Assembly: GCA_030145195.1 (NCBI GenBank)
Contig: JAQYVY010000033.1
Span: 1 to 39,886, forward strand
Reading direction: 5' to 3'
Source: Desulfuromonadales bacterium
GTDB taxonomy: Bacteria; Desulfobacterota; Desulfuromonadia; Desulfuromonadales; BM103
Length of the DNA: 39,886 nucleotides
A program made the position numbers and the translations under genes. Below the pieces are notes generated by a model. That model saw nothing but the letters and a program-made list of their open reading frames with translations. It searched no databases and was not told the DNA's origin. Position 1 is the stretch's first letter; every line of letters begins with the position of its first letter. Below, piece after piece: positions 4,576 to 39,886 of the stretch.

Positions 4576-4636
4576 GCCAAAACAAGTTGGTGACGGTAAT
4601 CTTCTTCATCTTAAAGCTTGCGCTGAGATTGTTAAA

Positions 4637-4670
4637 GGGGCGGTCCAATCTGGACCGCCCCCTGCATTTT
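4637..4670 (+). terminator. Rho-independent terminator after the RND operon
   Basis: A perfect 11-bp stem (GGGGCGGTCCA at 4637-4647, complement at 4651-4661) with a 3-base loop is followed by a T-containing tail (CTGCATTTT). It sits 60 bases past the pump stop and between convergent genes, so it may also stop transcripts from the minus-strand J-domain gene. Confidence 0.7.
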
Positions 4671-4717
4671 AGAAAGAATTATTCAGTTGTCAGCGGACAA
4701 AAGACACCCTCTTCCGT

Positions 4718-5470
4718 TCAAGTAGACTTTGATTTCTTGATCGCCTCATAGGCTTCGTTAATTTCACGAAATTTTTCTTCGGCAAACTTGATAAAATCTT
4801 CTGGCAACCCCTTGGAGATAACCTTATCAGGGTGATATTCGCTAACCAGTTTGCGATAGGCCTTTTTAACAGTGGCAATGTCCGCCCCGTTCTCCAGCCC
4901 AAGCATGGCGTAATGATGTGAAACATCACTGACGAACTGGCGCTTGACGGTTTCGTAAACGTTGCCATGCAGGCCAAGCAGCCCCGGTGCTGCACGCAAC
5001 ATCGAATCTTCAGCCGGATGTAGCACGCCATCGGCCAGCGCCAGAGTAAAGAGCATTTCAAAAAACATCATTCGCAGCTGCGGCTCGGCTTGAAAAACCT
5101 GGCCCAACTGCCTGGCATAATCTTCAAATGGAGTATTGTTGTCTTTCGCTTCGTTGAAGACCCCGATAGCAAACTGCTGCGTCACCGCATCGAGACGAAG
5201 CTTATCCTGCATAAAACAACGCACGGCCTTGATCTCATCATCGCAAACTTGTCCATCGGCCTTGGCCATTTTACCAAACATGGCAAAGGTGGCGGTAAAA
5301 AAGACCGCCTGGCGTTGCTCCTGACCAGTCAACTGACCGCGCTCGGCATAGCTGGACCGCACCTTGTCATCTATCAGGGAATGTCCCAGTGACACCCCAA
5401 CCAGCGCTCCGATCGGGCCACCGAGCATGAAACCGACACTGCCTCCCATAATTTTACCGAACCATGACAT
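4718..5470 (-). CDS. djlA: DjlA-like co-chaperone: TerB domain plus J domain
   Basis: The protein has 250 residues. The N-terminus (about 5-32) is a Gly-rich hydrophobic stretch with glycine-zipper spacing (GGSVGFMLGGPIGALVGV), a probable membrane anchor. A TerB-like helical domain covers about 55-165, with DG acidic motifs at ADGQVCDDE and ADGVLHPAE. A C-terminal J domain (185-250) carries HPD at 213-215, the residues that stimulate DnaK ATPase. Anchor, TerB and J domain in this order match DjlA, and the length is close to the E. coli protein. The ATG has an AGGAG about 10 bases upstream. It stands alone, convergent with the RND operon. It is inferred to recruit Hsp70 to envelope clients. 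Confidence 0.88.
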   Translation of the reverse strand: MSWFGKIMGGSVGFMLGGPIGALVGVSLGHSLIDDKVRSSYAERGQLTGQEQRQAVFFTATFAMFGKMAKADGQVCDDEIKAVRCFMQDKLRLDAVTQQFAIGVFNEAKDNNTPFEDYARQLGQVFQAEPQLRMMFFEMLFTLALADGVLHPAEDSMLRAAPGLLGLHGNVYETVKRQFVSDVSHHYAMLGLENGADIATVKKAYRKLVSEYHPDKVISKGLPEDFIKFAEEKFREINEAYEAIKKSKST

Positions 5471-5530
5471 GTGGATTGTTCTCCTGTTTTTTAAAAAATC
5501 CCGGATCAGGATTTCGTTTGTATAGCCAAG

Positions 5531-5669
5531 GGTTAGCTTCAGCCACAGAGACGCGAAGACACAAAGAAAAACCTGTTTTTGCCAAAAGCTTAAACAAGTT
5601 TTGCCCTTTAAATGTTTGTGTTTCGTATTTCTTAATGCCTTCGCGTCTTTGTGGCTAACTCTGTTTTTA
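5531..5669. repeat. Dispersed inverted-repeat element, copy A
   Basis: The left arm (5531-5566, TTAGCTTCAGCCACAGAGAC then GCGAAGACAC) is complementary to the right arm (5638-5663, CTTCGCGTCTTTGTGGCTAA), with about 70 bases of AT-rich spacer. Five further copies occur in other spacers of this window. No coding sequence is visible in it. Confidence 0.7.
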
Positions 5670-6022
5670 TTACAGGCCTGCTATTAATAAAGATCGGCAT
5701 CGTACCACGAACTGTTTTTCACTTCTATACGGATTGGAAGGACAGTGCTGAGGGATGGGGTGAGATTTGAGCAAGGGGCTAGGTGATATGACGGCAGAGT
5801 GTGACGAAGCATGTTCCAACTGTGGCAGAAAAACCCTGCACCCTGTCGTGAAAGTTACACATGCTTGCACACCTGTAATTAAAAACGACCAAAAATCAAA
5901 CAGTTAGATATATTTATCGATTTTTCATAAACTCCCAAGTGAGCAGAATAATTCAATTCCTGCAGGGTCACGAGTGCGTGCGTCATAGAATCACAAAAAC
6001 ATAACCTCGTTTGTCTTCTTCT
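5670..6022. other. Non-coding spacer
   Basis: AT-rich spacer between repeat copy A and the sigma-54-like promoter. No convincing gene or RNA was seen. The region upstream of the promoter could hold an enhancer-binding site (possibly 5960-5995), but no symmetric site was clear enough to call. Confidence 0.4.
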
Positions 6023-6038
6023 TGGCACAACGCTTGCT
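6023..6038 (+). promoter_or_regulatory. Sigma-54 (RpoN) type promoter
   Basis: TGGCAC (6023-6028), five bases, then TTGCT (6034-6038) match the -24/-12 consensus. GG and GC are exactly 12 positions apart, as RpoN requires. The predicted start of transcription is near 6049, leaving an 80-base leader before the lipoprotein ATG at 6130. Confidence 0.7.
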
Positions 6039-6129
6039 CTATTACCTGATCGAACCCGCCTTATCGAACATGATCAAAAGCATCAAACTATGCAATCGAC
6101 ACCCAGGGGAGACAAGGACATATCTGGAT

Positions 6130-6534
6130 ATGCTGCAAAAGCTAATCACCATTATACTGCTCGCCCTCCTTACCAGCGCCTGCGCTCAACAAACCGCTTT
6201 TATGTCGAATCCTCCCGGTGCGGAGGTTTTCGTTGATGGCACGTCAATCGGCAACACACCATGCGCCTTCGACTACAACCTCGGCAATGGCAACAGCCAC
6301 GAAGTCACCGTCGCCAAGACCGGCTTTGACCCGGTTCATTTCGTGGTCAAAACCGATGAGGTGGATACTCAGGCCCGCAACCGCTGGTTGGCGGCGGGAG
6401 TGGTCTGGAGTCCTCTCTGGGTAGGCACACTCTTCACCAAGAAGTTCAAAGACAGCTACGATTTCTCACTACGGGCCGAACCATCCGCCTTGACGGCTCA
6501 TTCGGGGCAAGCTGTAACTCCCAACAAAATGTAA
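6130..6534 (+). CDS. PEGA-domain lipoprotein
   Basis: The frame is open from 6022, but the sigma-54 promoter lies inside that extension and a lipoprotein signal begins at the ATG at 6130. I therefore choose 6130 (134 residues), with AAGGA 11 bases upstream. The signal is MLQKLITIILLALLTSAC, with lipidation expected at Cys18; Thr at -3 is less usual in a lipobox. Residues about 22-75 form a PEGA-like beta domain (NPPGAEVFVDGTSIGNTP). A short hydrophobic segment follows (LAAGVVWSPLWVGTLF). PEGA domains are small envelope modules of unclear biochemical role. The gene is monocistronic, between its own promoter and a strong terminator. Confidence 0.82.
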   Translation: MLQKLITIILLALLTSACAQQTAFMSNPPGAEVFVDGTSIGNTPCAFDYNLGNGNSHEVTVAKTGFDPVHFVVKTDEVDTQARNRWLAAGVVWSPLWVGTLFTKKFKDSYDFSLRAEPSALTAHSGQAVTPNKM

Positions 6535-6552
6535 TCCGTCTGATTTTCATAT

Positions 6553-6597
6553 AACAACAATGGCCGACTTCACGATGAAGTCGGCCTTGTTGTTTTC
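6553..6597 (+). terminator. Rho-independent terminator
   Basis: The stem GGCCGACTT (6562-6570) / AAGTCGGCC (6578-6586) has a 7-base loop. It extends through AACAACAA/TTGTTGTT with one bulge and is followed by TTTTCGTT. It lies 18 bases after the lipoprotein stop. Confidence 0.75.
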
Positions 6598-6615
6598 GTT
6601 CAACATCCCCCAAAA

Positions 6616-6749
6616 GGCAATCCTGCCACATAGACATACGAACATCCTAAAAACACAATGGTTCAAGATCCAAAAACTTGTTAGCGGTTCAGTAGAAAAA
6701 ATTTCGTTCTCCGAGCCTTTGTGTCTTAGTGGCTAATCTTAGTTTTGGT
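6616..6749. repeat. Dispersed inverted-repeat element, copy B (degenerate)
   Basis: The left arm GCCACATAGACATACGAA (6625-6642) and the right arm CTTTGTGTCTTAGTGGCTAA (about 6717-6736) match the family of copy A. It lies directly after the lipoprotein terminator and before the end of the HD-GYP gene. Confidence 0.6.
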
Positions 6750-6762
6750 TGCACCGACACCA

Positions 6763-7905
6763 CTACTGCAAACCAACATCAGCAAAGCCACGCTGAATCT
6801 TCATAATTTCAGCAGATTGACTGACAAGTGCTCCAACGCAATCCTTATCCAACTTATCGATCGACATCATCTGCAACATAGCAAAGGCCTGTTCATTGGA
6901 CCAAGTCTCTTTATAGGAACGTTTGCTGGTAAGTGCATCAAAGATATCGCTGACAGCCGTAATCCGTGCCTCCAGTGAAATATCAGGGCCCTTGAGTCCA
7001 TGCGGGTAGCCACGACCATCCATTGTTTCATGATGGTGCTCGGCAATATTGCGTAGATAATCTATGTAGGGCAATTGCTCGAATTTGAAGTTCACTATCA
7101 GTTCATCGATAATCCTCCGCCCAAGCGTGGTGTGAGTGTTCATGACCTCACGTTCATCCAGATCAAGCTTAGAGGTTTTTTTCACAATTCGATCTGGGAT
7201 AGCTAGTTTGCCTACATCATGCAACGGTGCGAAGAGAAATATCTGCTCAAGCTGTTCATCATCCAGAGAATGCACCCCCAGTTTGACCAGGCTGCGGCCA
7301 ATCAACCGGGCGTACCGAGCCATGCGCTCCATATGATTACCGCTCTCAACGTTGTGTACCTTCACCATGCTGAGCAAAGTTCGCAGTGATGCCACCAAAG
7401 CCCGACTCGCAGCAAAATCACTCATAATCATTTCGCCAACCAGATGAACAAAAATATCAACTTGCTCGAGCACCCGTTCGCGAAAATACCGTTTGCGAAA
7501 GGAGTCGAAAAAGATAAAACCGATCAGTTCACTATTTTGGTACATGGGATGGGTGTAGCTAGAGGCAAAACCGTGACCAACAATTGCATGGGTATGTGCA
7601 CTGCTGCTGTGATCAAAAATCTGCAGATCGTGAACGACTCGCGGTTGCCGACGAATCGCGACCTCATGTAAAGAAGTCAGATCATTAAGGACCGCTTGGT
7701 AATTAGACAGGGGACTTTCGGCAATCGGACTGGCAAGAAAGGTTTTCAACACGTCGGCCTGACTGTCATAAAGGGCAACACTAATGCGGTCAATACCGGC
7801 GCAATATCGCTGCAATACCTTATGCACCACAGCCAGCTTTTCCTGTAAAGTGGCAGCGTCTGCTAATCCGGACATCGGATCATCGCGGAAGAATAACTGT
7901 TCCAT
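6763..7905 (-). CDS. GAF-like sensor with HD-GYP c-di-GMP phosphodiesterase domain
   Basis: The protein has 380 residues and no signal peptide or membrane segment, so it is cytoplasmic. Residues about 20-160 form a GAF-like sensory domain. An HD-GYP domain runs from about 175 to 365 with HD at 229-230 (APLHDVGKLAIPDRIV), His pairs in AEHHHETMDGRGYPHG and the GYP triplet at 299-301. The metal ligands and GYP are intact, so hydrolysis of c-di-GMP is expected. The entry helix has NVESGNHMERM instead of the more common HD..TG.H..R, a mild deviation. The gene is monocistronic, flanked by repeat copies B and C. Its ligand is unknown. Confidence 0.9.
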   Translation of the reverse strand: MEQLFFRDDPMSGLADAATLQEKLAVVHKVLQRYCAGIDRISVALYDSQADVLKTFLASPIAESPLSNYQAVLNDLTSLHEVAIRRQPRVVHDLQIFDHSSSAHTHAIVGHGFASSYTHPMYQNSELIGFIFFDSFRKRYFRERVLEQVDIFVHLVGEMIMSDFAASRALVASLRTLLSMVKVHNVESGNHMERMARYARLIGRSLVKLGVHSLDDEQLEQIFLFAPLHDVGKLAIPDRIVKKTSKLDLDEREVMNTHTTLGRRIIDELIVNFKFEQLPYIDYLRNIAEHHHETMDGRGYPHGLKGPDISLEARITAVSDIFDALTSKRSYKETWSNEQAFAMLQMMSIDKLDKDCVGALVSQSAEIMKIQRGFADVGLQ

Positions 7906-8117
7906 ATCTGCCCCGGGAAACTATTGTTTGCTCCCCCTCAGGGAACTGGATCATACCAATCGGGAGTCAGAGATTGACTCTTCTCTACATTGTATCGAGC
8001 AAAATGATTAGTGCAATGTGCTCCCACCAGCCAGACTTTGACCAATAGGCCCCATTGCGACAACCTTGAGCAAGATTAAAATACTAATAACAAGCCTAAG
8101 AGGCCGAGGAACTTATT

Positions 8118-8321
8118 GTTTGCCACCAAGGCACAAGGCAGCAAGAATTTCCTTTATAAAATAAAGAACAAGTTTTTCGATCTTGACGCTTTGATATTGC
8201 ATAAGATCAGAAGCACTTACTCCGGGGATTGATGGCTTGGTGGTTCTCCTCTGTTCTGGTTATAAGCTTATCAAATCAGGTGTTTTAAACTTAGTGCCTT
8301 TGTGACTTAGTGGCTCCTTAG
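8118..8321. repeat. Dispersed inverted-repeat element, copy C
   Basis: The left arm GTTTGCCACCAAGGCACAAG (from 8118) is complementary to the right arm CTTTGTGACTTAGTGGCT (about 8298-8315), with about 150 bases of AT-rich spacer. It fills most of the 427-base gap between the M24 peptidase stop and the HD-GYP start. Nothing else was recognised in that gap. Confidence 0.65.
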
Positions 8322-8332
8322 TCATTTCGCAA

Positions 8333-9523
8333 TCAGAGCGCCACCAACTCCTGGTCAGAAAAGGTGATGTGTTTGAGGCCATCGGGTGCCACCCGGAGGG
8401 TGTTTTCGATCCCGACCGCTCCCAACCCAGGGAAGACCACTTTCGGTTCGAAGGCAAAGGTCATATTCTCCTTGAGTTGATAGTCGTTGAACCCCCTGGC
8501 AATGAAGGGATATTCATCGAGTTCAACGCCAGTGCCGTGGCCAATGAAGGACACCTGAGCCCCTTTCGAACCCATAAAATGGTCCTGGTAGCCCATCTCG
8601 CAAGCCATTGAGAGACACTCATCATACAGCCCCCCCCATGACACACCCGGCTTGCCGACCTGGCGGGCATATTCCTGAATGGCCAACATATCGGCATAGG
8701 CTTTCAAAAAATTGTCTGGAAGCTCGCCGACACTGAAGATTCGGGTCTGGTCAACAATATAGCCATCAAAGACACCAGAAAAATCGACGGTGATCGGTTC
8801 ATTGGCCAGGATTGTCTTGTAACTCGCGCCCTGTGGGAACGACGGGTTAAGCCCCATGCCACCCAGAGGCGTGTCAGAATAGGTCGGAACAGCACTGTCG
8901 GGACCGGAGAAACAGTGGCCGTAAAAGAGTTCATTATTGAACCCACGCATACGGACATAACCTTGATGCCCGGCCTTTCTGGCAACAAACTCAAGCTCTG
9001 CCGACAGTTCCAGATCGGTCAGCCCCTCGCGAATGACCTCCTTCGCCCGCTTACACACTTTATCGACGATCAGGGCCGCATCTTTCATGATATTGATTTC
9101 ATAATCAGACTTGACGGCCCGAACAGTACGAATCAACGGAGAAGCATCACTGACAGAACAGTCGCCAAAAACTTTTTGGAAGCGCTGGAAAGTCCCAACC
9201 GGGAGCACATCCAGTTCCATACCCAATGTTTTCGGCATGGCATACCCGAAATCGGTAAGGACACCTGGGATGTCGCGAGGGCTTCTAAAAGGCACCACCT
9301 CTTTCAGGCCGGACTCCATGCGTGCCCGGGAAAAGTCTTTACGCACCAGATAAAGGGCTTCCCCTTGCACCGGAACATACACAACTCCCTGCTGAACGGC
9401 TCCGGTGAAGTAAAACAGATCGGCATTCTGTAGCATCAAAACTGCATCCAGGCTGTGCATAACCATCTCCTGTTGCAAGTTTTTGATGCGATTATTCAGT
9501 TCTGTCATCGGGGTAATGCGCAC
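8333..9523 (-). CDS. M24 family metallopeptidase (Xaa-Pro aminopeptidase-like)
   Basis: The 396-residue protein has a creatinase-type N-terminal domain (about 1-135) and a pita-bread catalytic domain (about 140-385). The five metal ligands of the family are visible: Asp247 (VDFSG), Asp258 (VDQTR), His329 (GHGTG), Glu359 (FEPK) and Glu373 (IENT). It probably removes N-terminal residues preceding proline from peptides in the cytoplasm. The start is a GTG at 9523, supported by AAGGAG 9 bases upstream; the ATG five codons later has no well-placed site. It stands alone. Xaa-Pro aminopeptidase versus dipeptidase cannot be separated here. Confidence 0.9.
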   Translation of the reverse strand: MRITPMTELNNRIKNLQQEMVMHSLDAVLMLQNADLFYFTGAVQQGVVYVPVQGEALYLVRKDFSRARMESGLKEVVPFRSPRDIPGVLTDFGYAMPKTLGMELDVLPVGTFQRFQKVFGDCSVSDASPLIRTVRAVKSDYEINIMKDAALIVDKVCKRAKEVIREGLTDLELSAELEFVARKAGHQGYVRMRGFNNELFYGHCFSGPDSAVPTYSDTPLGGMGLNPSFPQGASYKTILANEPITVDFSGVFDGYIVDQTRIFSVGELPDNFLKAYADMLAIQEYARQVGKPGVSWGGLYDECLSMACEMGYQDHFMGSKGAQVSFIGHGTGVELDEYPFIARGFNDYQLKENMTFAFEPKVVFPGLGAVGIENTLRVAPDGLKHITFSDQELVAL

Positions 9524-9991
9524 AATAGTAACTCCTTAAGGCGGACATGCTTCGCCAAATGCATATAGGCTAATTTTAGCAACATTGACATCAGAAAATT
9601 GATTTTTTACCGGTTGCCTCAATTGGTTGGCGGAAACGATGCGCCTCAACCGATCAAGCGATCTCCTAAGTGGCGAACCAGGCCATTAACATACTGTTAT
9701 TTAAGGTCTTTTACATATCACAGTGAATTTTTCAAGGCAAACAAAAAGAAGCTTATTCATTAAAACCACAGAAAATTTTGGATATAATGAATGATTAATT
9801 TCTGACGAGGCACAGAGTTTAAGCAGACCAGTAAGGACATGATTTATTTATGTGCAAAAAGCTAAACGAGTATGTCTTTTGGGAGCTTTAGTCGAACATT
9901 TCGGCACTTTCCACATGGCTATCCACAGGCAGCTGTGGACGGTATACAATATACATGAGAACCCTTACCACAGACCAACTTGGAAAGCTTA
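9524..9991. other. Long non-coding spacer with two adjacent palindromes
   Basis: No gene was found. At 9921-9938 TCCACAG and CTGTGGA form a palindrome around 4 bases, and at 9941-9953 GTATA-CAA-TATAC forms another. These could be operator or structural sites. Promoter elements for the divergently placed peptidase gene would lie near 9540-9640 but none is clear. Confidence 0.35.
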
Positions 9992-10020
9992 AGAAACCGG
10001 CCGGGCTAATGCCCGACCGG
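9992..10020 (-). terminator. Rho-independent terminator of the octaheme cytochrome gene
   Basis: On the minus strand CCGGTCGGGC and GCCCGGCCGG pair (10 bp with one G-T wobble) around ATTA, followed by TTTCTT. It lies about 76 bases after the cytochrome stop. Confidence 0.65.
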
Positions 10021-10096
10021 TCGGTACAAGGCAACTTTATTCGGCTTTACTTGGTCTCCTTTTTTTCATACCCCCACCCTAGAGTTCGGATGTGCA

Positions 10097-11440
10097 CTAC
10101 TTAACATCCTGTTGGTAGCGATCCTGATAGTATTTTTTCATCTCATCAACTCGCTTGGGATCGAAGCCCTTAGTGTACCATTCATGTTCTTTGCGTCCGT
10201 CGATGTACTTGGCGATGATCGCTGCGTAAACTTCCGGCTTGCCCGCCTTCTCACAAGCGTCCTTAGCTTCAGGCAACAATTCGATGTAGAAGTGCTTGGC
10301 AACATCATAGATTCCGTGCCACCAGGCATAATCAGGTCCACTCATAGCCGCACCGTGACGAGCCCGACGACCTTCATGATGCCACAACTCCCAGTAGATC
10401 CAGTCGATTTTGTCGTCAAAGTTGCCTTTGGTCAAAACACCCTCGTCTATCAACAAATTACGGATTTCCTTGGCAGGGATGCCAAACTTGTCGTTGTAGA
10501 GGGCGACAAAGCTATCTAACTGTTTGTAAAAACCTTCAACAAACGGCGCACCATGACAGCCGAAGCAGACATCTTGCATATCAGCGAGTTTTGTCTCCCA
10601 ATCAGCGGTTCGCGCGGAAACTGGCGCACGCAGGTTCCACGCGAGACGGGTTCCAACGTCGTGCGTGGTTGGTTGGTTACGCGTAGCACTCATGTGACAA
10701 GTGGCGCAAGTCGCGGCATCATAATAATCGACGCCAGCAACCCACTTCGGATGGTCCATATTCATTTCGTCTTTGAAGGCCTGATACAGGATGCCATGCT
10801 TCGACTCCTCATAGACCTCTTTCTGTGGATGATCTGGGCCAAGATGACATTTACCGCAGGTCTCAGGTTGGCGAGCCTGCTCTTTGCTGAAGCGATGGCG
10901 GGTATGACAAGCCGAGCAAGTCCCCTTGGAACCGTCCGGGTTGACCCGGCCGATGCCGGTGTTAGGCCAGGTATTGGTATCGAGGCTGCCATCATTGTTC
11001 ACCTTGACGAGTGAACCGTGGCACTGCCGGCAACCAACCGCAACCGCAGGCTCCCCCCCAATAGTCTGGCCGAGGATTCCATCCTGGCTGTTCAGAATAT
11101 CACCGGCCTGGGCATGATGACTGGTTTCCTGCTCTGCAGTCTCCCGGGGATGGCACTGGCCACAATCGCGAGGGGATACGATGACGGCAACGGAGAAACC
11201 GTAGTGCTCCATAGCATCCGCATCATTATTGTTTGCTTTGTGACACTCGTAGCAACCGACGGCAGCGTTCCAATGGGCACTGTCTTCCCATTGACGGACC
11301 ATTCCGGGCGTCTCTTCTGTGTGACAAGCCAGACACTCTATTGTTTCTTCCGAATGGCGAATCTCGGCAAAACTGACAGCAACGGTGAGCAATATGATCA
11401 CTGAGACCAATACACCCGGCAAAACCAAGTTCACTCTCAT
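10097..11440 (-). CDS. Octaheme c-type cytochrome of the hydroxylamine oxidoreductase (HAO) family
   Basis: A 447-residue exported protein; the signal peptide ends near residue 25 (VSFA). Eight CXXCH motifs bind c-type haems at Cys36, 63, 93, 137, 175, 195, 245 and 292. The section after haem 7 (CHMSATRNQPTTHDVGTR then LAWNLRAPVS) is characteristic of the HAO family. The C-terminal 150 residues are helical and Trp/His/Tyr-rich without haems, as in HAO. In anaerobes such proteins are usually thought to act reductively on nitrite or hydroxylamine, or as electron carriers; whether the catalytic-haem tyrosine crosslink of ammonia oxidisers is present cannot be decided by eye. It has a GGGAGG ribosome site, its own terminator, and no NapC/NrfH-type quinol partner in the window. 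Confidence 0.9.
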   Translation of the reverse strand: MRVNLVLPGVLVSVIILLTVAVSFAEIRHSEETIECLACHTEETPGMVRQWEDSAHWNAAVGCYECHKANNNDADAMEHYGFSVAVIVSPRDCGQCHPRETAEQETSHHAQAGDILNSQDGILGQTIGGEPAVAVGCRQCHGSLVKVNNDGSLDTNTWPNTGIGRVNPDGSKGTCSACHTRHRFSKEQARQPETCGKCHLGPDHPQKEVYEESKHGILYQAFKDEMNMDHPKWVAGVDYYDAATCATCHMSATRNQPTTHDVGTRLAWNLRAPVSARTADWETKLADMQDVCFGCHGAPFVEGFYKQLDSFVALYNDKFGIPAKEIRNLLIDEGVLTKGNFDDKIDWIYWELWHHEGRRARHGAAMSGPDYAWWHGIYDVAKHFYIELLPEAKDACEKAGKPEVYAAIIAKYIDGRKEHEWYTKGFDPKRVDEMKKYYQDRYQQDVK

Positions 11441-32474: not shown

Positions 32475-33527
32475 TCAGTTAAAACCTTTACCACCAGTCA
32501 TCTCACGCTCAATCGTCTCGCCGCGATCAACCACAAACTGCAACTGACGGGCATTCGACTTGCCAGGATGAATCCCTTTGAGCTGACGGATTTCGTCTGC
32601 GCTGTAACGGTAAGGTACGCCTTTCAGTTCAATGTTACCGCCAGAGTCCATAACATCACCGATCATCTTCATGATGTTGGCTTCGAGACGGAACGACTCA
32701 GTGATGGAACCATCAATCTCCACTCGCCAGGCAGCATAGCTGGCTTGAGGATTGTTGCGCACGATGCTGCCACCAACCCGCTTGGCATCGACTACACCAG
32801 TCGCCGTATTCAGAACCTTGCCGAACACCTCAGCGATTTCGTAATCGGTCGCGCCATCAAGACGAATCTGCAGGGTGTTTTCATGCTTGCGGGCGTTCTG
32901 CATCAGGCGGCCTTGATTTGACGCCGGAGTTGCAGGATCAACCACGGTGGCATACTGATCGCCGCGATCACGCCGCCAGGTGGTCAGCATCTGACCAACC
33001 AGGTCGCCAGCGTATTTTTCGACTTCAACAACGGCTTCGTCGCGGTCACGACGAGTCACCTTAAAGGTTTCGGTCAGGCCAACGCCGAGGTCACGGCCGC
33101 CGGCATCGTAGCCTTCGCCATCAATGATCGCGGTCGCCTTGTAATAACCATCAGCGGTACGCTTCATCTTTACTTTCAGCCAGACGATGTAAGCCACGTC
33201 GACGCCGTACTTCTCACAGACTTCGCGTATCGCCAGAATCGAATCTTCACGAGCGCGCTCAGCGACCCGGTTGTATTCGTTCTCGATGCTTTCTTTGGCG
33301 AAAGGGTTGATCACCTCAAAATCGTTGTGGTCGAGATGATTGTTGATCTGGCGCATGGTACGACGGTAGTGAGTCTTGATCTCACCACCTTTGGACGCAT
33401 CAACGCCCTCTTCCACGTAGAACGGCAGAACCACGATCCGCACCGGGCTGGCAGCGGCGGTTAGTACAGAGCCCAGAAGCATCAGGCTGGCCAAACTTAT
33501 AACCATTAAAAGATTGAAACGACGCAT
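32475..33527 (-). CDS. Secreted protein of unknown function (caspase-cluster member)
   Basis: The 350-residue protein has a clear signal peptide (cleavage near residue 26, LTAAASP). The mature N-terminus, PVRIVVLPFYVEEG, resembles the alpha/beta start of CsgG/FlgT-like periplasmic domains. Residues up to about 180 look alpha/beta with conserved charged helices; the C-terminal half (about 210-350) may hold a second small domain (NTLQIRLDGATDYEIAEVFG). No catalytic motif is seen. A near-ideal AAGGAGG lies just before the ATG, suggesting high expression. It is the last gene of the minus-strand caspase region, separated from proX by a 257-base spacer with a REP pair, so it may have its own promoter. 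Confidence 0.8.
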   Translation of the reverse strand: MRRFNLLMVISLASLMLLGSVLTAAASPVRIVVLPFYVEEGVDASKGGEIKTHYRRTMRQINNHLDHNDFEVINPFAKESIENEYNRVAERAREDSILAIREVCEKYGVDVAYIVWLKVKMKRTADGYYKATAIIDGEGYDAGGRDLGVGLTETFKVTRRDRDEAVVEVEKYAGDLVGQMLTTWRRDRGDQYATVVDPATPASNQGRLMQNARKHENTLQIRLDGATDYEIAEVFGKVLNTATGVVDAKRVGGSIVRNNPQASYAAWRVEIDGSITESFRLEANIMKMIGDVMDSGGNIELKGVPYRYSADEIRQLKGIHPGKSNARQLQFVVDRGETIEREMTGGKGFN

Positions 33528-33656
33528 GGTGGAACCTCCTTAGGATAATGTCATTGTCAAATGACTGAATTTAACAATTGGGTTAATGGTCTTATCGTTG
33601 ATTGCGTTAAGTTTTCAAGAAAAAAATAACTTACGCTTCATTTCACACACAAAACC

Positions 33657-33728
33657 TTCGCGGTGTGGACACCGCTCCTACAAAACCACCACCGCTAGTC
33701 TCTGTGGGAGCGGTCTCCGTACCGCGAA
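33657..33728. repeat. REP-like inverted pair, copy 1
   Basis: TTCGCGGTGTGGACACCGCT then CCTACA (33657-33682) and, inverted, TGTGGGAGCGGTCTCCGTAC then CGCGAA (33703-33728). Each unit contains its own palindrome (GCGGTGTGGACACCGC type). The head-to-head pair resembles a BIME. Confidence 0.75.
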
Positions 33729-33784
33729 TTATTCCACCAAAAGGACAACACTTCTATCGCAACGCCATTATCACCGCCGAAAAA

Positions 33785-34897
33785 TCACATCAAAGCGGCG
33801 CGGGCCTCCGCAAGCCAGCCGTTCCATGTCTCCTGATTCGTGGCAATCCACTCTCTGGCGTGTCGCTCAATGCTGTTCTGTGATTTTTCACCGCGCTGCA
33901 TCCTGGCGTTCTGTGCGTTAATATCGCTCAACGGGAGGTTAAAAACCTCGAAAAAACGTTTTGCTGCTGGATTCTTTTCGAGGAATCTTTTGTTTGCAAC
34001 CACTCGGATATCGCTGTTCACGAAACCGGTTTTCAGCGGATCCGTCACCGCACCTTCAACGCGGCTCACCGTCATCCGGTCCTGATTTTCCCTCTGCGAT
34101 TCTTTCGGGACGATGTCCGGGACATTGATCCATAAAACGTCTTTGCCCGGCTTCAACTCGTCGAGTGTCCAATTCGGCGCCCAGGAATAGAAGAAGACTG
34201 GTTCACCTGACCTGTAGCGTGCCACCGTGTCTGCCATGTTCGCCGAGTATCCGGACTTATTTGGATTTATGTAGCGAGTGAGACCGTACGCTTCCAGGTG
34301 GTGGGTAATGACCTTTTCACAGCCCCAACCGGGTGGGCAAGCAGTCAGATCAGACTTGCCATCACCATTGTCATCAAAGGCCCGCATGACTTCAGGCCGC
34401 TTGAAATCATCCAGCGATTGGATATTAAATTCTTCAACATGCTGCTTTGACACCAGGTAGCCTTGCAACCCACCGGCTTTGGCCACATAACCGATAATCT
34501 CAACCCGGTTTTCCCAGCCATTCGGCATTTGTTGGAAATGCAATGGAAACCAGCCGTTGGCCCAGTAGTCAATGTCTCCCTGCATGACCGCTTTGTAGAA
34601 ACGCGGGTTCTGCAATTCTTTTGACTCCCTGACATCGTAACCAAGCTCTTGCAGGCCGGCGCGTACCAGAGCTTCCTGAAAATATCCGGTGTTCCAGGTT
34701 GCCCGAGCGGGCTGTACTGTCACCCCCTTGCCAGGCAAGGGGTTTGCCGCGTGGACCGCCTGGCTTGAACTTTTCGGCTCCGATAGAGATGTCCTTTTTC
34801 GCTCTTCCTCCTGAGGCAATTCAAAGCCGGGGATAAAGTCGGCCGAGGCCACCCCCGAGCCAAGCACCAAGGTCAAGAGGATTAGAAAAATATGCAT
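33785..34897 (-). CDS. proX: ProX-like glycine betaine/proline substrate-binding protein
   Basis: 370 residues from the ATG at 34897 (AAAGGA 11 bases upstream); a start seven codons earlier is also possible. The signal peptide ends near residue 20 (SGVASA). The mature protein has an extra polar linker of about 35 residues before the conserved core VTVQPARATWNTGYFQEAL. Family features are the Trp-rich ligand site regions (TWNTGYF, YWANGWFPLH, YSWAPNWTLDEL) and the CPPGWGCEKV loop. It would bind betaine, proline betaine or a similar quaternary amine in the periplasm. No ProV/ProW gene is adjacent; instead it lies between two REP elements, after the TPR-caspase gene. Confidence 0.88.
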   Translation of the reverse strand: MHIFLILLTLVLGSGVASADFIPGFELPQEEERKRTSLSEPKSSSQAVHAANPLPGKGVTVQPARATWNTGYFQEALVRAGLQELGYDVRESKELQNPRFYKAVMQGDIDYWANGWFPLHFQQMPNGWENRVEIIGYVAKAGGLQGYLVSKQHVEEFNIQSLDDFKRPEVMRAFDDNGDGKSDLTACPPGWGCEKVITHHLEAYGLTRYINPNKSGYSANMADTVARYRSGEPVFFYSWAPNWTLDELKPGKDVLWINVPDIVPKESQRENQDRMTVSRVEGAVTDPLKTGFVNSDIRVVANKRFLEKNPAAKRFFEVFNLPLSDINAQNARMQRGEKSQNSIERHAREWIATNQETWNGWLAEARAALM

Positions 34898-34930
34898 GTT
34901 TGAGCCATTCCTTTGCATCCGTTCGAAAGC

Positions 34931-34956
34931 TTCGCGGTACGGAGACCGCTCCTACA
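34931..34956. repeat. REP-like element, copy 2
   Basis: TTCGCGGTACGGAGACCGCT followed by CCTACA; nearly identical to the inverted unit of copy 1. It sits just upstream of the proX start. CTCGTCCCGCGTCCC follows at about 34973-34987. Confidence 0.75.
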
Positions 34957-34992
34957 AAAAACTTTCGCGCACCTCGTCCCGCGTCCCATTCT

Positions 34993-36840
34993 TTACCGCA
35001 ACTCCACCATCACCGCATCGGCCTTGCCCGACATCAACGGCGTCTGCGACCGATTGGCCTCACGCTGCGCCCAATAAGGCACCTCTTTGCCAAGATAGGC
35101 CTGCATCTCACCAGCAGTAATTGACTTGTTGCGGTTCGCGTCGGCCGCACCGCCGAGCCCCTTTAAGAAGAAATAAGTAAAGAGGCTGTGCCGTTTGGCG
35201 TTGTACCAGGCCGAGACCTGGTCTTTATCGGCACTGGAGAAAATCACGCTGTTCTCCACATCCTGCAGCGCGCGCACGTTCTTGACCATGGCCGGGCTGA
35301 TATTCTTGAACAAAGCCCCCGCCGGCGAATCGCCGGAGAAGCAGGCATCGAGCACCACCGTCTTGCTCTTGACCGGCAGGTCACGCAACACCTGGTAAAA
35401 GAGATCGAGCGGATAACCGTTGTTGGCGATAAAATCAGCCTGGGCATCCACCGGCACCAGGTAGGCGCTCTTGCCATCGGGGCCGGGCGCACCGTGGCCA
35501 ACATAGTAAATAAAGACTTCCGATTCACCACTGCGGACAAAGTTGTGTAACCGTCCGCGCGGGTTGTCTTTGCTGCCAAAGATATTGCGCAAGTCACCGC
35601 TGGTGGTGTCGGTCTCGTAGATGATGTTCTGCGGATCGTAGCCGAGCACTTCCACCAGGTACTTCTGCATCACTCGCGCATCGCGCCCGGCCCAGCGCAC
35701 ATCGCCGATACCGCGATCCTGGCTGGCATAGTTCTGGTTGCCGATCACCACCGCCACCGCATGCGGGCGCTTGACGGCACCGCGCGGGATGTTGTCATCA
35801 ACATCAACCTTCAGGTTCAGATCGGTTGAAGCGTTGTTCGTGCCAGTCGATAAACCGGCCAACAGTTGATCGGCCTTGCCGCCGCCAGAACTCTTTTTAC
35901 TGCGCGCCACAGCCTTGGGCACTTCGATCTCGACCGCCTCGGCAAGAAAGGCTTCCAGCAGCTTGTCGGAGGTGGTCTGGAAGGCTGATACCGCCGGGTA
36001 CTTCTTCGCCAGGTCACGCGCCTGAGCCACCGCGGACCCGCCCTTGCCCGCCTGATAGTTGGCGTAAAGGTTCTGCACCATCACATCGGCCACATCTTCA
36101 AGAGCGTCGCCGATCTCTCGATCACCGGGGAAACTCTTTTGGGCAGCCAAGCCTGCAGACAATGCATCCTCAGTGCGGCCCAAACTGTTCAAAGCCAGCA
36201 CCTCGGCTCGCGCCGCATCGGGGATATTCGACAGCTTTTTCAAGCCGGCCAAACCGGCCTGGGTCTGGCCATTTTTGATCAGCTCAAGGTTATGCGCCAG
36301 CGTCGCATCCAGAGCCTGAGCATAAGCAGACTGGATCGATTTATCAGATGACCATTTCTGTTTGGCCTGTTGAGCGGTAGTCATCGCGGCTTCAAGATTG
36401 CCAGTGGCCAGTTCGGCCTGAATCAAAGTCGCCTGAACAGATGGAGAGCCCTTATCGAGCCGGGAGGCTTTGCGGGCATACTCAAGAGCCTGACTCGCAT
36501 TGACGCCCTGCTCCAGCATCACCGCCGCCAGGTTGTTCAACCAGGCAGAACGGCTGCCATCCAATTGCACCGCTTTTTCCAGAGCACTCTGGGCATCGGC
36601 CAAACGCCCGTACTGGTAATAGGCGACCCCCAGGTTATAGCTCAGGCTGGCATCATCGGGGCAGAGCTGCTGAGCCTTGATGAAGAGCTTGAGGCCAGAG
36701 GCCTGATCGCTGGTAAACTTTTGGGCGCCTTTACCGGCGATTTCGCTGGCTAAGCCGCAGGTATCGGCGGCCAACAACGGCTGGCAGACCAGGCCGAGCA
36801 GGGCTGTAGTCAGAAAAAGTAATCGTACCAATTTGTGCAT
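34993..36840 (-). CDS. Exported TPR-caspase (peptidase C14 / orthocaspase) protein
   Basis: 615 residues from the ATG at 36840 (CAGGAG before it). The signal peptide ends near residue 25 (LLAA). About 30-300 holds TPR-type helical repeats (SLSYNLGVAYYQYGRLADAQ begins one). The caspase domain covers about 365-615: KRPHAVAVVIGNQNYAS, catalytic His449 in YYVGHGAPG and Cys500 in VLDACFSGD, then DQVSAWYNAKRHSLFTYFFL. A degenerate EF-hand-like loop (DANRNKSITAGE, 567-578) lies 49 residues from the end. It is a predicted periplasmic cysteine protease cutting after Arg/Lys (as most orthocaspases do) or an inactive scaffold. The neighbouring gene carries a sister domain, so the two probably arose by duplication. 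Confidence 0.9.
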   Translation of the reverse strand: MHKLVRLLFLTTALLGLVCQPLLAADTCGLASEIAGKGAQKFTSDQASGLKLFIKAQQLCPDDASLSYNLGVAYYQYGRLADAQSALEKAVQLDGSRSAWLNNLAAVMLEQGVNASQALEYARKASRLDKGSPSVQATLIQAELATGNLEAAMTTAQQAKQKWSSDKSIQSAYAQALDATLAHNLELIKNGQTQAGLAGLKKLSNIPDAARAEVLALNSLGRTEDALSAGLAAQKSFPGDREIGDALEDVADVMVQNLYANYQAGKGGSAVAQARDLAKKYPAVSAFQTTSDKLLEAFLAEAVEIEVPKAVARSKKSSGGGKADQLLAGLSTGTNNASTDLNLKVDVDDNIPRGAVKRPHAVAVVIGNQNYASQDRGIGDVRWAGRDARVMQKYLVEVLGYDPQNIIYETDTTSGDLRNIFGSKDNPRGRLHNFVRSGESEVFIYYVGHGAPGPDGKSAYLVPVDAQADFIANNGYPLDLFYQVLRDLPVKSKTVVLDACFSGDSPAGALFKNISPAMVKNVRALQDVENSVIFSSADKDQVSAWYNAKRHSLFTYFFLKGLGGAADANRNKSITAGEMQAYLGKEVPYWAQREANRSQTPLMSGKADAVMVELR

Positions 36841-36888
36841 TGTCGTCTCCTGTTGCAACAATCGGAATCCACCAAAAACCACAAAAAC

Positions 36889-36914
36889 TTCGCGGTGAGG
36901 ACACCGCTCCTACC
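36889..36914. repeat. REP-like element, copy 3
   Basis: TTCGCGGTGAGGACACCGCT followed by CCTACC in the 108-base spacer between the two caspase genes. Same family as copies 1 and 2. Confidence 0.72.
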
Positions 36915-36948
36915 AAGAACTGTCCCTACTTCCACAATCGTCCTCGAC

Positions 36949-39279
36949 TTATTTCAACTCAGCCAACACAACCGACCGGTCACCATTGACACTCGGCTCT
37001 TGAATAATGTTGTTGAGACGGCTTGCCATGTACGGAACTTTCTCCGTCAGATACCCTTCAATTTCGGCAACCGTAACCTTTCGGTCCTGATTTGAGTCGG
37101 CCGCGCCCTGCAGTGCTTTCAAAAAATAATAGGTAAACATTGAATGGCGCTTCTCATGGTACCAGGCTGAAACCTGGTCAACTCCGGCACTGGTAAAAAC
37201 GATAGCTTTTGCAGGTCCCTTAGCCAGTGCTTTGGTTTTGACCATGGCCGGGCTGATATTACGAAACAACAGCCCCTGCTCCGAGTTGCCAGAGAAGCAG
37301 GCATCCAACACCACGGTCATCTGTTTGGTCGGTATTTCCGCAAGGTTCTTGTACAGAGTTGCCAATGAATAACCGCTGGCGCTCAAGTATAGGGGGTCGG
37401 CATTCACCGGCACAAAGTAGGCATCGCCACTTTTCAGGTCGGGAGCCCCATGGCCGGTATAGTAAACAAACACCCGAGAGGAGCCCTTGGGGTCGACCCA
37501 TGCCGCAAGTTTGCCACGCGGATCGCGATCGGTTCCGAAGATCATATTGAACTCAGACAGATCGGCATTCTCGGTGAATATAATGTTCTTTTTATCGAAA
37601 CCAAGGGTGCGAATCAGGTATTCCTGCATGATCCGGGCGTCACGAATCGCATATTTAACCTGCGGTACACCGGCGACCGTGTAATCCCGGTTGCCAATCA
37701 CCACGGCAATATCGTATTCACCTGCCTTCGTGCCGATCGGGATATTATTATCAACATCAACACTCAAACCTGTCGCCTGAGTGATCGGAGCCTTTGCGTT
37801 AGCCGAGGCCTGAACCGACTGGACCACGACCTGATGGTTTTTTCTTGCAGGAGCATTCATCTCAAGCGCGAGTGCAGTTGACTGAGCAAACCTGGGGCGA
37901 GATTCATCGATCTGAACAGTGACGGGGATTTGTTCGCCATTTTTTATTCGGCGATTGGTGTAGAAGCTGAAAGAGACATCCTCGTAGGCGCCAGACTTCA
38001 GTTCACCAAGCTCGAAATTTGTGTCGCTGCCAGCGGCCAGGAAAACGTTTGGCCCCAGTTCAATGCGAGCCATAACACCACGGGCATCGCCTTGGCCAGT
38101 GTTTTGAATTCTGGCTGTCAGTTCTACAATTTCGAGCGGTTCAATTCGAGCATTGCTGTTCTGATCGGCAATTCCAAGATCGGCAAGGATGAGGTTCGGG
38201 GGCTCCAGCTTGTTACAATCAAAAACCAGGCTGACCGGAGCCGGCTCGAAACCATTGGCTTCATACGGGGTCACGGTCACACGCGCAGAGGTTGTTTCAA
38301 GGGACTCACCGGCCGCCAGCTTAACCGAACGCGTCACCTTACCACCTGCCGGGATATCACCAAAAGTCACTTTCTTTGCAACATCAAGCCCTCGAACCGG
38401 GGGAGACACAGCAATAACAGCTTCGACATCCTGCGCATGACCTTTGCCAGTATTAACGATCTCAACATCGAGGGTTCCTGTTTCTTCTGCATCGAGGGCC
38501 TTGTTGCCGGATGATTCGGCAAGAGTGACATTAAGCTCCAGCACAGGTGGATGGGAGGGCTTGCTGGGAGGTACATTTTTACTATTGGATGCAATGGAAT
38601 GTTGTTTTTGAGCCTTATCAATGTAGACAATCCCATCTCTTTTAGTTTTCTTCAACTGATTAACATCAAGAACTAAGTCAAGTGCTTGATCCCAAGGGAC
38701 ATCTATCAGACGAAGAGTAATTTTACCCTTGACTTCAGGTGATGCCATTATTGGCACGCCACTGACATCGCTTATCAACTGAAGGATGTTTTTGATCTCG
38801 GCTTCGTCAAATACCAAGGTGATTGGAGAGCCACTGTAGTCCTTTTCAATTTTTCCCCACGACACAACCAAACCACTATCTAGTTCTGTCACCTTGACGT
38901 TAGAGAGATCACCACAAGCAGAATCGAAGACAAATCTTGTCTTATCCGAGTACGCACCTATTCTCAGCCCTTCAAAGCAGCTATCATCCATACGAAAAGT
39001 GCGCTCTTTAAACCCCGGCTTGGCATCATAAATATCGAGCAAAAACCGCGGTGGTTTGCCTAATGTGAAATACTGATATTTTTCTAGTTTTGTATTTACA
39101 TTGAAGGTGACTTTGCCAGGGTCAAAGACAGGGGTTTCTACCTGTCTTTCACGATCATCCGTTCTTTCTGAAATTGTCGTTGCAATATTTTTTGCTTCTG
39201 CATGGGCCGAAATCCCAGCAAAGCACAGAGAATGGAAACAAATAAGAAGAGCGAAAACAAACAGAAATAATCTTGTCAT
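36949..39279 (-). CDS. Exported AMIN-STN-CARDB-caspase multidomain protein
   Basis: The 776-residue protein has a signal peptide ending near residue 21-26. Domains by eye: AMIN (about 55-143; KYQYFTLGKPPRFLLDIYDA), an STN/secretin-N-like unit (150-222; ITLVFDEAEIKNILQLISDV, then MASPEVKGKITLRL) as in PilQ, and two CARDB/Ig-like beta domains (about 245-355 and 358-470; NTGKGHAQDVEA, NTGQGDARGVMA). A caspase domain follows (about 520-776) with catalytic His610 (YYTGHGAPD) and Cys661 (VLDACFSGN). An EF-hand-like loop DSNQDRKVTVAE (728-739) lies 49 residues from the end. AMIN/STN modules bind peptidoglycan or secretin partners, so this protease is probably wall- or secretin-associated. I know no described protein with this exact order. 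Confidence 0.9.
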   Translation of the reverse strand: MTRLFLFVFALLICFHSLCFAGISAHAEAKNIATTISERTDDRERQVETPVFDPGKVTFNVNTKLEKYQYFTLGKPPRFLLDIYDAKPGFKERTFRMDDSCFEGLRIGAYSDKTRFVFDSACGDLSNVKVTELDSGLVVSWGKIEKDYSGSPITLVFDEAEIKNILQLISDVSGVPIMASPEVKGKITLRLIDVPWDQALDLVLDVNQLKKTKRDGIVYIDKAQKQHSIASNSKNVPPSKPSHPPVLELNVTLAESSGNKALDAEETGTLDVEIVNTGKGHAQDVEAVIAVSPPVRGLDVAKKVTFGDIPAGGKVTRSVKLAAGESLETTSARVTVTPYEANGFEPAPVSLVFDCNKLEPPNLILADLGIADQNSNARIEPLEIVELTARIQNTGQGDARGVMARIELGPNVFLAAGSDTNFELGELKSGAYEDVSFSFYTNRRIKNGEQIPVTVQIDESRPRFAQSTALALEMNAPARKNHQVVVQSVQASANAKAPITQATGLSVDVDNNIPIGTKAGEYDIAVVIGNRDYTVAGVPQVKYAIRDARIMQEYLIRTLGFDKKNIIFTENADLSEFNMIFGTDRDPRGKLAAWVDPKGSSRVFVYYTGHGAPDLKSGDAYFVPVNADPLYLSASGYSLATLYKNLAEIPTKQMTVVLDACFSGNSEQGLLFRNISPAMVKTKALAKGPAKAIVFTSAGVDQVSAWYHEKRHSMFTYYFLKALQGAADSNQDRKVTVAEIEGYLTEKVPYMASRLNNIIQEPSVNGDRSVVLAELK

Positions 39280-39384
39280 GGTTAACCTTAACGATATTAA
39301 ACTAAATCAAAAAGCCAAAATAAAAAAGCCTAAATCAGCACGACTTGAATCAAACAGCAAAGCAACATAACGGATAAATCTCGA

Positions 39385-39886
39385 CTAATTACAATCCGGC
39401 CCAACCATGTAACCAACCACCTTCTCACTCCAGCCAAAATTTTCCTTCAACAACGCCGACACCTGGCGAATATCGCCGCCCTGCGCGCCAGCATAGATGG
39501 CGTTCTCCGGGACCGGCAGAAAAGAGAAATCAAGCGGATACTTGCTGGAAATCACCTTGATCCCCTCATGGATGGTCTCGCGTTCATCCAGAGGATAGAA
39601 AACCAACTGGATATCATCCTCAAGGGCTGATGGCGGAAAGTGCAGGCGACCAGTCGGTAACGGCTGATCTTTCATGATGGAGTTGGGATAGAGCAAGGTG
39701 ACAGTGTGGTCGGCGGCAAGATTGAGCAGATAGACGTGACTACCTGGCTCAGTATTAACGATCACCTTGCCGGGAGTACCAGACGGATAGCAGGCGGGAT
39801 TCCGATCAAGGGCGGCAACCAGCTTTGGTCCTGACGTCGCAGAACCGTCAACCAGAGTCTCAACTTCTTCTTGAAAGACATTGCCT
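39385..39886 (-). CDS. DUF4384-like protein, C-terminal part (5' end outside window)
   Basis: The minus-strand frame stays open to the window edge, so only the last 166 residues are seen. The pattern TEPGSHVYLLNLAADHTVTL followed by LYPNS and the strand LHFPPSALEDDIQLVFYPLD fits DUF4384, a beta-rich domain often placed in exported proteins and at the N-terminus or next to caspase (C14) proteins. It ends 106 bases before the AMIN-caspase gene on the same strand, so co-transcription is likely. The last four residues (GPDCN) hold a Cys. Function unknown. Confidence 0.75.
   Translation of the reverse strand, partial: GNVFQEEVETLVDGSATSGPKLVAALDRNPACYPSGTPGKVIVNTEPGSHVYLLNLAADHTVTLLYPNSIMKDQPLPTGRLHFPPSALEDDIQLVFYPLDERETIHEGIKVISSKYPLDFSFLPVPENAIYAGAQGGDIRQVSALLKENFGWSEKVVGYMVGPDCN

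Follow-up and report, generated by a model that had tools for sequence, protein, structure and literature searches.

Caspase-like proteases of bacteria are already known from conflict systems with variable domains. In the portions of PMC7159879 used here, these comprise the MoxR-vWA/VMAP ternary systems and the EACC1-caspase "System 4", the latter with up to 50 fused domains. Variation is attributed there to FGS/FGE domains linked to diversity-generating retroelements (DGRs) or to modules captured from other subsystems of the cell and often inactive, for which a decoy action is proposed. In one case of that paper, the variable position is occupied by transmembrane helices followed by an extracellular periplasmic-binding-protein domain, so that joining a caspase to a binding-protein domain is in itself nothing new. 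DGR sensors with caspase-type effectors are described for multicellular bacteria (PMC10907252) and for cyanobacterial orthocaspases (PMC7517822), again as far as the consulted portions go. According to the corresponding part of PMC8144416, which does not mention caspases, a signal peptide or a transmembrane domain is present in the majority of cellular DGR targets. That of PMC3501461 reports that bacterial metacaspases have rich architectures and that as many as three of them can occur in one operon. Here, we analyzed a stretch of 39,886 bases (the window), which is the whole contig C85 of the 3.4 Mb draft genome of a Desulfuromonadales bacterium and carries a gene cluster for two exported caspases and a ProX protein.

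Our preferred interpretation, to which we give an even chance of being correct, is that the window constitutes one end of an island of predicted exported sensor-protease devices whose sensors are either exchangeable or built in. The cluster consists of five minus-strand genes in a row, encoding P0005, P0001, P0002, P0003 and P0004. All five open reading frames (ORFs) listed by a sequence-only reading of this stretch are present, and P0001 to P0004 all start with a signal peptide recognizable by eye. The gene list of that reading stood, and two of its domain labels were revised: the "STN" part of P0001 corresponds to a PilQ-type AMIN plus N0, and the "ProX-like" P0003 is a full ProX with an unusual N-terminal insertion.

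Both caspase domains exceed the Pfam cut-off for Peptidase C14 of 21.4 bits (56.8 bits for P0001 and 55.9 for P0002) and share 47% identity across 274 aa. P0001 (776 aa; 36949..39279, minus strand) has its caspase domain at 36952..37710, with His610 at 37450-37452 and Cys661 at 37297-37299. In P0002 (615 aa; 34993..36840, minus strand; ATG start, with a GTG upstream at 36882), His449 and Cys500 are encoded at 35494-35496 and 35341-35343. Inspection of the codons confirmed these positions and the spacing of 51 residues, and the His-Cys dyad is intact and invariant in four alignments. Cleavage is predicted to be Arg/Lys-directed, and the Asp located two residues ahead of the Cys fits the metacaspase pocket. 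Near the C-termini, a loop that is similar across the family (P0001, DSNQDRKVTVAE, aa 728-739, ~37063-37098; P0002, DANRNKSITAGE, aa 567-578, ~35107-35142) resembles the EF-hand consensus and is a possible Ca2+ switch. In the AlphaFold2 model, the P0001 caspase is similar to the MALT1 paracaspase (TMt 0.66) and also to metacaspase 4; an integrin, the top Foldseek row for P0001, was not accepted as kinship. In PADLOC, the two proteins matched only PDLC02987, a generic model for caspases (E 4.6e-5 and 7.4e-6).

P0002 is composed of a signal peptide, a TPR domain (aa 26-335), a linker (aa 346-354) and the caspase. Its AlphaFold2 model (mean pLDDT 73.6) has a confident TPR superhelix, a low-confidence linker region (332-354) and a weak C-terminal half. 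The modelled TPR part resembles PilF/PilW, MamA and OGT, and the structure-alignment rows (VIA-align) span this part only. A tree built from the TPR region alone gave no resolved grouping, and in a tree of 92 caspase domains the TPR-caspases fall into two separate clades. The exported caspase family, for which 80 loci were kept of 227 relatives, spans Thermodesulfobacteriota, Nitrospirota, Bacteroidota, Cloacimonadota and others. A profile search of the window genome detected 11 C14 domains, to which the members on contigs C13 and C96, missed by the profile, have to be added. Two or three adjoining caspase genes were seen in loci L102, L109, L126, L139 and L150, several of them in Geobacter-type genomes.

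The feature that connects ProX with the TPR-caspase is a short peptide at its mature N-terminus. P0003 (33785..34897, minus strand) has a glycine-betaine-binding fold; it passes the NCBIfam ProX model PRK11119 (423 bits, cut-off 215) and aligns across the full domain to E. coli ProX (1r9l). It is 76% identical to the ProX of a relative's ProVWX cluster, from which it differs in being an orphan with an N-terminal insertion of ~33 aa. Neither ProV nor ProW was found beside it in the window; contig C80 of the same genome carries ProV (527 bits, cut-off 444), ProW (best model, 349 against 439) and ProX together. That P0003 is a displaced member of ProVWX was unsupported, given the cluster elsewhere and the unusual tag. 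This tag, DFIPGFEL, lies directly after the signal peptide (34817..34840, minus strand). With cleavage sites read by eye, mature P0003 starts with DFIPGFELPQ, and an FGE protein encoded on contig C79 of the same genome starts with DFIPGFELHP. Mature starts of FGE partners of TPR-caspases elsewhere are GFISGFEPVW, WFIKDFR, GVIVQFEEVW, GFVPGFELKG, GWEYDFEKVW, GVVEKFEPVW and WLIGDFQIPA. The P0003 and C79 tags differ at five of 24 nucleotides, all silently, and the leaders in front of them align poorly (24 of 57 positions), which argues for selection on the tag peptide rather than for a recent DNA copy.

A first regular expression for the tag matched 13 of 1145 ORFs, ten of which (eight distinct genes) are such partners, ProX included. 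A widened pattern, allowing L and Q, was then applied after dropping open ORFs and those of <200 aa and adding loci L250 and L251. It was present in 12 of the 16 FGE proteins encoded beside TPR-caspases (7/8 when non-redundant) and in none of the 28 beside other caspases. With the same pattern and a stricter pre-filter, which missed L132 and L140, the counts were 8/14 versus 0/31 (non-redundant, 4/10 versus 0/31). None of 25 ordinary ProX proteins carried the tag (26 loci inspected, one unreadable). Since tagged partners occur with both TPR-caspase clades, the tag appears to follow the TPR module. In L132, whose TPR-caspase is the closest relative of P0002, the FGE ahead of that caspase shares 58% identity with the C79 FGE. 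We read these data as suggesting that ProX joined or replaced an FGE partner and carries what would be that partner's docking peptide. The proposal that ProX acts as a ligand sensor thereby gained a link to the caspase through the shared N-terminus, the sensor role itself being a possible one. Two other uses of the tag were discarded: as a general cleavage site, because the 30 residues that follow it in the C79 FGE lack Arg/Lys, and, for its DNA pattern, as a search key, because 92 of 98 genomes match, which shows it to be too short for specificity. Downstream of the TPR-caspase in L249 (10792-16593), four secreted FGE paralogues have almost identical mature starts (YVPDDLDF).

FGE proteins also occur in the wider neighbourhood of the caspases. 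The survey took in 93 loci besides the window, 94 in all, with L048/L097 and L049/L094 each denoting a single place. FGE-sulfatase-fold proteins were found in 37 loci, members of a second DUF4384 family in 26 and a reverse transcriptase family in 11. Both scanned members of the second DUF4384 family were DUF4384 proteins, and an LPP20-like start of this family was not borne out by Pfam. A further neighbour family (15 loci) comprised a bAvd-like and a Y1-transposase-like protein among two members scanned, the latter below the Pfam cut-off. In ten of 15 loci of relatives tested, a template aligned with the 3' end of the FGE gene, with mismatches nearly all at template A (17/17 in L251 and 18/18 in L071), which identifies the FGE proteins of those ten loci, by their sequence pattern, as true DGR targets. 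No template/variable repeat was found in the other five (L084, L230, L132, L093 and L249, where the match was a paralogue), nor on contig C79 of the window genome. The L251 cassette (4663-10343) has the order FGE, HRDC-domain protein, reverse transcriptase and TPR-caspase; an Avd assignment for its accessory gene was rejected, Pfam returning HRDC.

The modules built into exported caspases of this genome are PilQ AMIN-N0, DctP, FKBP, cytochrome c7, WD40 and TPR. P0001 consists of a signal peptide, a PilQ-derived AMIN (aa 41-144) and N0 (aa 146-225) encoded at 38605..39159, two CARDB/Ig-like domains (aa 244-490; 37810..38550), the entry linker DVDNNIPIG (aa 508-516; 37732..37758) and the caspase, all on the minus strand. 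Pfam scores of window proteins stayed below cut-off for AMIN (20.2 versus 20.5), STN (22.2 versus 28.4) and DUF4384 (24.4 versus 27). A PilQ profile matched P0001 with E 1.3e-63 over aa 41-144 and 146-225, and 3jc8 with E 2.3e-19. For TIGR02515 (PilQ), P0001 reaches 75 bits (cut-off 284) and the genome's own PilQ 404. P0001 thus shares AMIN and N0 with the PilQ secretin but lacks the ~205 PilQ positions between them and the C-terminal secretin domain, having CARDB and caspase domains instead. Its AMIN and N0 are 43% and 55% identical to the resident PilQ, with N0 up to 65% identical to other PilQ proteins. Pfam recognizes one CARDB; the second is supported by a stretch common to the relatives and by the model. 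The commonest relative of P0001 is a shorter form of ~565 aa, composed of signal peptide, CARDB and caspase. Among 82 caspases checked, five of which were open at the N-terminus, P0001 alone had the PilQ module, and no match combining a PilQ part with a caspase was among those listed for 97 other genomes.

A captured module is found on contig C96 (L040; G000:C96:18000-32239). A DctP-CARDB-caspase gene (8253-10991) adjoins a free DctP gene (7053-8204), followed on the same strand by DctQ and DctM. Fused and free DctP share 80.7% amino-acid identity across 321 residues and 85% DNA identity across 837 bp, and by this comparison the fused module is a local duplication joined to the protease. Contig C57 (L055) encodes, at 2849-4240 and 4445-6250, a caspase with a triheme cytochrome c7 (TIGR04257, 89 bits versus 40) and a caspase with two PEGA domains and an FKBP that is 65% identical to a resident FKBP and reaches 102.8 with the NCBIfam model BamJ (beta-barrel assembly; cut-off 100). 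In L090 and L103, OmpH/Skp stands ahead of a CARDB-caspase, the caspase domain of L103 not being listed by Pfam.

The remaining genes tie the cluster to further caspases. P0005 (39385..39885, minus strand) is a C-terminal DUF4384 fragment of 166 aa whose ORF runs into the end of the contig. The first 102 aa of the protein, which include a lipoprotein-like leader, are apparently encoded at the end of C57. Compared with L140, ~65 aa are missing between the halves, and the contig ends do not overlap. Contigs C13 and C57 share 144 identical bases within a WD40-caspase ORF, so that this join is given by sequence and the C57-C85 join is inferred. From this overlap and the split DUF4384 gene, C13, C57 and C85 seem to form one island with six caspases. 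Its likely order begins with the TPR-caspase and the WD40-caspase; a subtilase and a protein of 227 aa, both encoded on the opposite strand, come next, and then caspase-PEGA-FKBP, caspase-cytochrome c7, two unknown proteins, DUF4384, P0001, P0002, P0003 and P0004. Ahead of the C13 TPR-caspase (L039, 1-140), a fragment like the C-terminus of an IS3-type transposase was read by eye.

A check set beforehand, conservation of the gene order, came out negative, as P0001-P0002-ProX occurs only here in the genomes searched; the contexts of two single parts recur. Relatives of P0005 (family F28) are present near exported caspases in four other genomes, adjoining the caspase in L108, L138 and L256 and two genes off in L140. 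P0004 (350 aa; 32475..33527, minus strand; family F58) is secreted and without Pfam match. Relatives of it are encoded after the TPR-caspase in L132, with 63% identity across 347 aa, and in L138, where one gene intervenes; none was detected at E 0.001 in the other 97 genomes searched. The intergenic gaps measure 105, 108, 95 and 257 bp, and three of the four contain repetitive extragenic palindromic (REP)-like hairpins on the minus strand: P0001/P0002 (36889..36913), P0002/P0003 (34931..34955) and P0003/P0004 (33657..33681). These elements read GTAGGAGCGG..CCGCGAA, and Y1-transposase-like genes are located near several relatives. No excess of promoter-like sites was seen in the gaps. A terminator-like hairpin of 14 pairs downstream of P0004 (32417..32448, minus strand) possibly marks the cluster end, although terminator-like sites across the region numbered six against 8.0 expected by chance.

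The scheme we propose is as follows. Through the tag, a ligand-binding partner would attach to the caspase at its TPR scaffold, which would make the sensor, FGE or ProX, exchangeable. The FGE sensor would be hypermutated by a retroelement in some genomes, ProX taking the sensor place here, and P0001 and its C96 sister would have the sensor or bait built in as a PilQ piece or a DctP copy. Engagement of partner or bait by a phage or toxin, a ligand change, or envelope damage would activate the caspase, which might then cut envelope proteins after Arg/Lys; the likely outcome would be containment or cell death, and less likely repair. A more specific version, which we put forward only tentatively, is an envelope counterpart of intracellular caspase immunity, with baits copied from resident proteins and a tagged plug-in socket on the TPR-caspase. 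If true, both the sensing and the killing would happen on the outer side of the cytoplasmic membrane, where phages and toxins enter; any ligand-binding protein with the short mature N-terminal peptide could dock on the TPR-caspase; and the integrated baits would have been copied from PilQ, DctP, FKBP, Skp and cytochrome c7.

Several points weigh against the island of sensor-protease devices. Proteolysis, trigger and outcome are all predicted from sequence, and the contact between tag and TPR is inferred. The tag enrichment (p = 9.6e-7) is descriptive only, because the pattern was built from the sequences counted and all counts are in-sample. The L117/L249 genome is an exception, its four FGE proteins sharing another N-terminus (YVPDDLDF or close). 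The 7.9 kb contig with the tagged C79 FGE contains no caspase, and the 4.5 kb contig with the C13 TPR-caspase contains no tagged protein. No match to the L251 reverse transcriptase was found in the window genome, in a search run without a positive control. The PilQ-caspase fusion is a single known case, and its PilQ module, at only 43%/55% identity, is not a recent copy of the resident PilQ. The P0001 model has a mean pLDDT of 65.7, with AMIN-N0 mostly <50, from an alignment containing no relative that covers AMIN-N0. DUF4384 and P0004 have no role in the scheme, and the assembly is a draft of 100 contigs with an estimated contamination of 1.79%.

Among the alternatives, housekeeping proteolysis of the envelope survives best and is a possibility to be taken seriously, if one that we consider doubtful. 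The modules would then be address labels of a processing or quality-control protease acting at the pilus secretin, peptidoglycan, transporters and foldases, with no part in immunity or death. AMIN and PilQ N0 are envelope-binding modules, OmpH/Skp and FKBP are quality-control proteins (the FKBP part on C57 passing the BamJ cut-off), and the reverse transcriptase family occurs in only 11 of the 94 loci, all of which suits this explanation. The strong module turnover, the local duplication of a TRAP solute-binding protein and the hypermutated partner in relatives fit an arms race better.

Ligand-gated regulation of physiology appears unlikely. Here, ProX would sense betaine or the osmotic state and DctP carboxylates, and the caspase would tune the matching transport or pilus function, which is consistent with the full-domain alignment of P0003 to 1r9l and with the C96 caspase gene directly ahead of DctP, DctQ and DctM. 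However, P0003 has no adjoining ProV/ProW, while the three Pro genes stand together on C80, and sensing of this kind is not a function of PilQ pieces, FKBP, cytochrome c7 or Skp.

A chance neighbourhood, in which repeat-mediated rearrangement brought ProX and P0001 next to P0002 without joint function, is quite unlikely. The REP-like elements in three of four gaps and the Y1-transposase-like genes near some relatives (one below the Pfam cut-off) would agree with it, as would the deviating GC content of the first 240 aa of P0001 (0.411, versus 0.53 for CARDB and 0.508 for the caspase). Against it speak the tag of ProX and the repeated association of DUF4384 and P0004 relatives with exported caspases.

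The sequence-only reading had regarded P0001 and P0002 as sister proteases that act one after the other or as a pair, ProX being the possible sensor. The blocks ISPAMVK and DQVSAWY and the linker DVDxNIPxG are present in both, as it stated. The linker is family-wide and 69 of 80 relatives have the 51-residue spacing, both catalytic motifs being found in 74 of 80 (some others are truncated), so neither is a special bond of these two. In the caspase tree (support given as a pair of values), P0001 groups with the C96 caspase of the same genome, which carries the TRAP solute-binding DctP module (100/98), and P0002 with L132, a Geopsychrobacter protein (100/98). Of the claimed single periplasmic protease system, export, caspase fold and intact dyads are supported, and the pair or cascade is not. 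Despite adjacent same-strand genes, a shared domain and the neighbouring caspases in the five loci mentioned above, joint action of the two is most improbable, given that they belong to different subclades, that the pair occurs in this genome only among those searched, and that the island seems to hold four further caspases of other types.

Compared with described systems, the sensor-protease devices proposed here depart from the EACC1-caspase type at several points. In the consulted portion of PMC7159879, the caspase is followed by the variable domain and has EACC1 or MoxR-vWA as partner, whereas the proteins of the window family are exported in their entirety, mostly carry the module at the N-terminal side, and have DUF4384 and tagged FGE/ProX as partners. 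P0001 and P0002 score 69 and 67 bits with the EACC1-caspase model NF047832 (cut-off 140), and general profile scans of the five window proteins and six C57 proteins (the latter with Pfam only) gave no EACC1. The systems of PMC10907252 and PMC7517822, in the portions consulted, likewise have lectin-fold DGR targets in caspase-effector loci, some predicted to be secreted or periplasmic; they use STAND/MoxR proteins or a direct caspase-variable fusion, whereas the components here are separate exported proteins, and the peptide common to mature N-termini in TPR-caspase loci is a feature of the window family. For orthocaspases, the available parts of PMC3501461 and PMC5756287 already report Peptidase C14, the His-Cys dyad, TPR/WD40/FGE-sulfatase partners, possible signal peptides and multi-metacaspase operons. 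We found no combinations with PilQ, DctP, Skp, FKBP or cytochrome c7 in those parts, nor any mention of CARDB, substrate-binding or the periplasm in that of PMC3501461. Among titles in open-licence PMC, literature on exported caspases with DGR, DUF4384 or substrate-binding-protein fusions, or on Geobacter metacaspases, did not yield this arrangement. With the integrated-decoy receptors proposed for plant NLRs, the family shares a module copied from a resident protein in the case of DctP (81%) and FKBP (65%); the likeness is weak for the PilQ pieces of P0001 (43/55% to its own PilQ). Sensors driven by DGRs and captured modules, the two routes by which caspase-bearing conflict systems diversify, both occur in the exported family, which bears on what bacterial caspases, exported ones especially, sense. 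The short shared tag would be a simple plug explaining sensor exchange and could help to find sensors of unfamiliar fold. The frame would thus be that of an exported variant of known caspase conflict systems, with the N-terminal tag and the envelope-protein modules as its apparently new elements.

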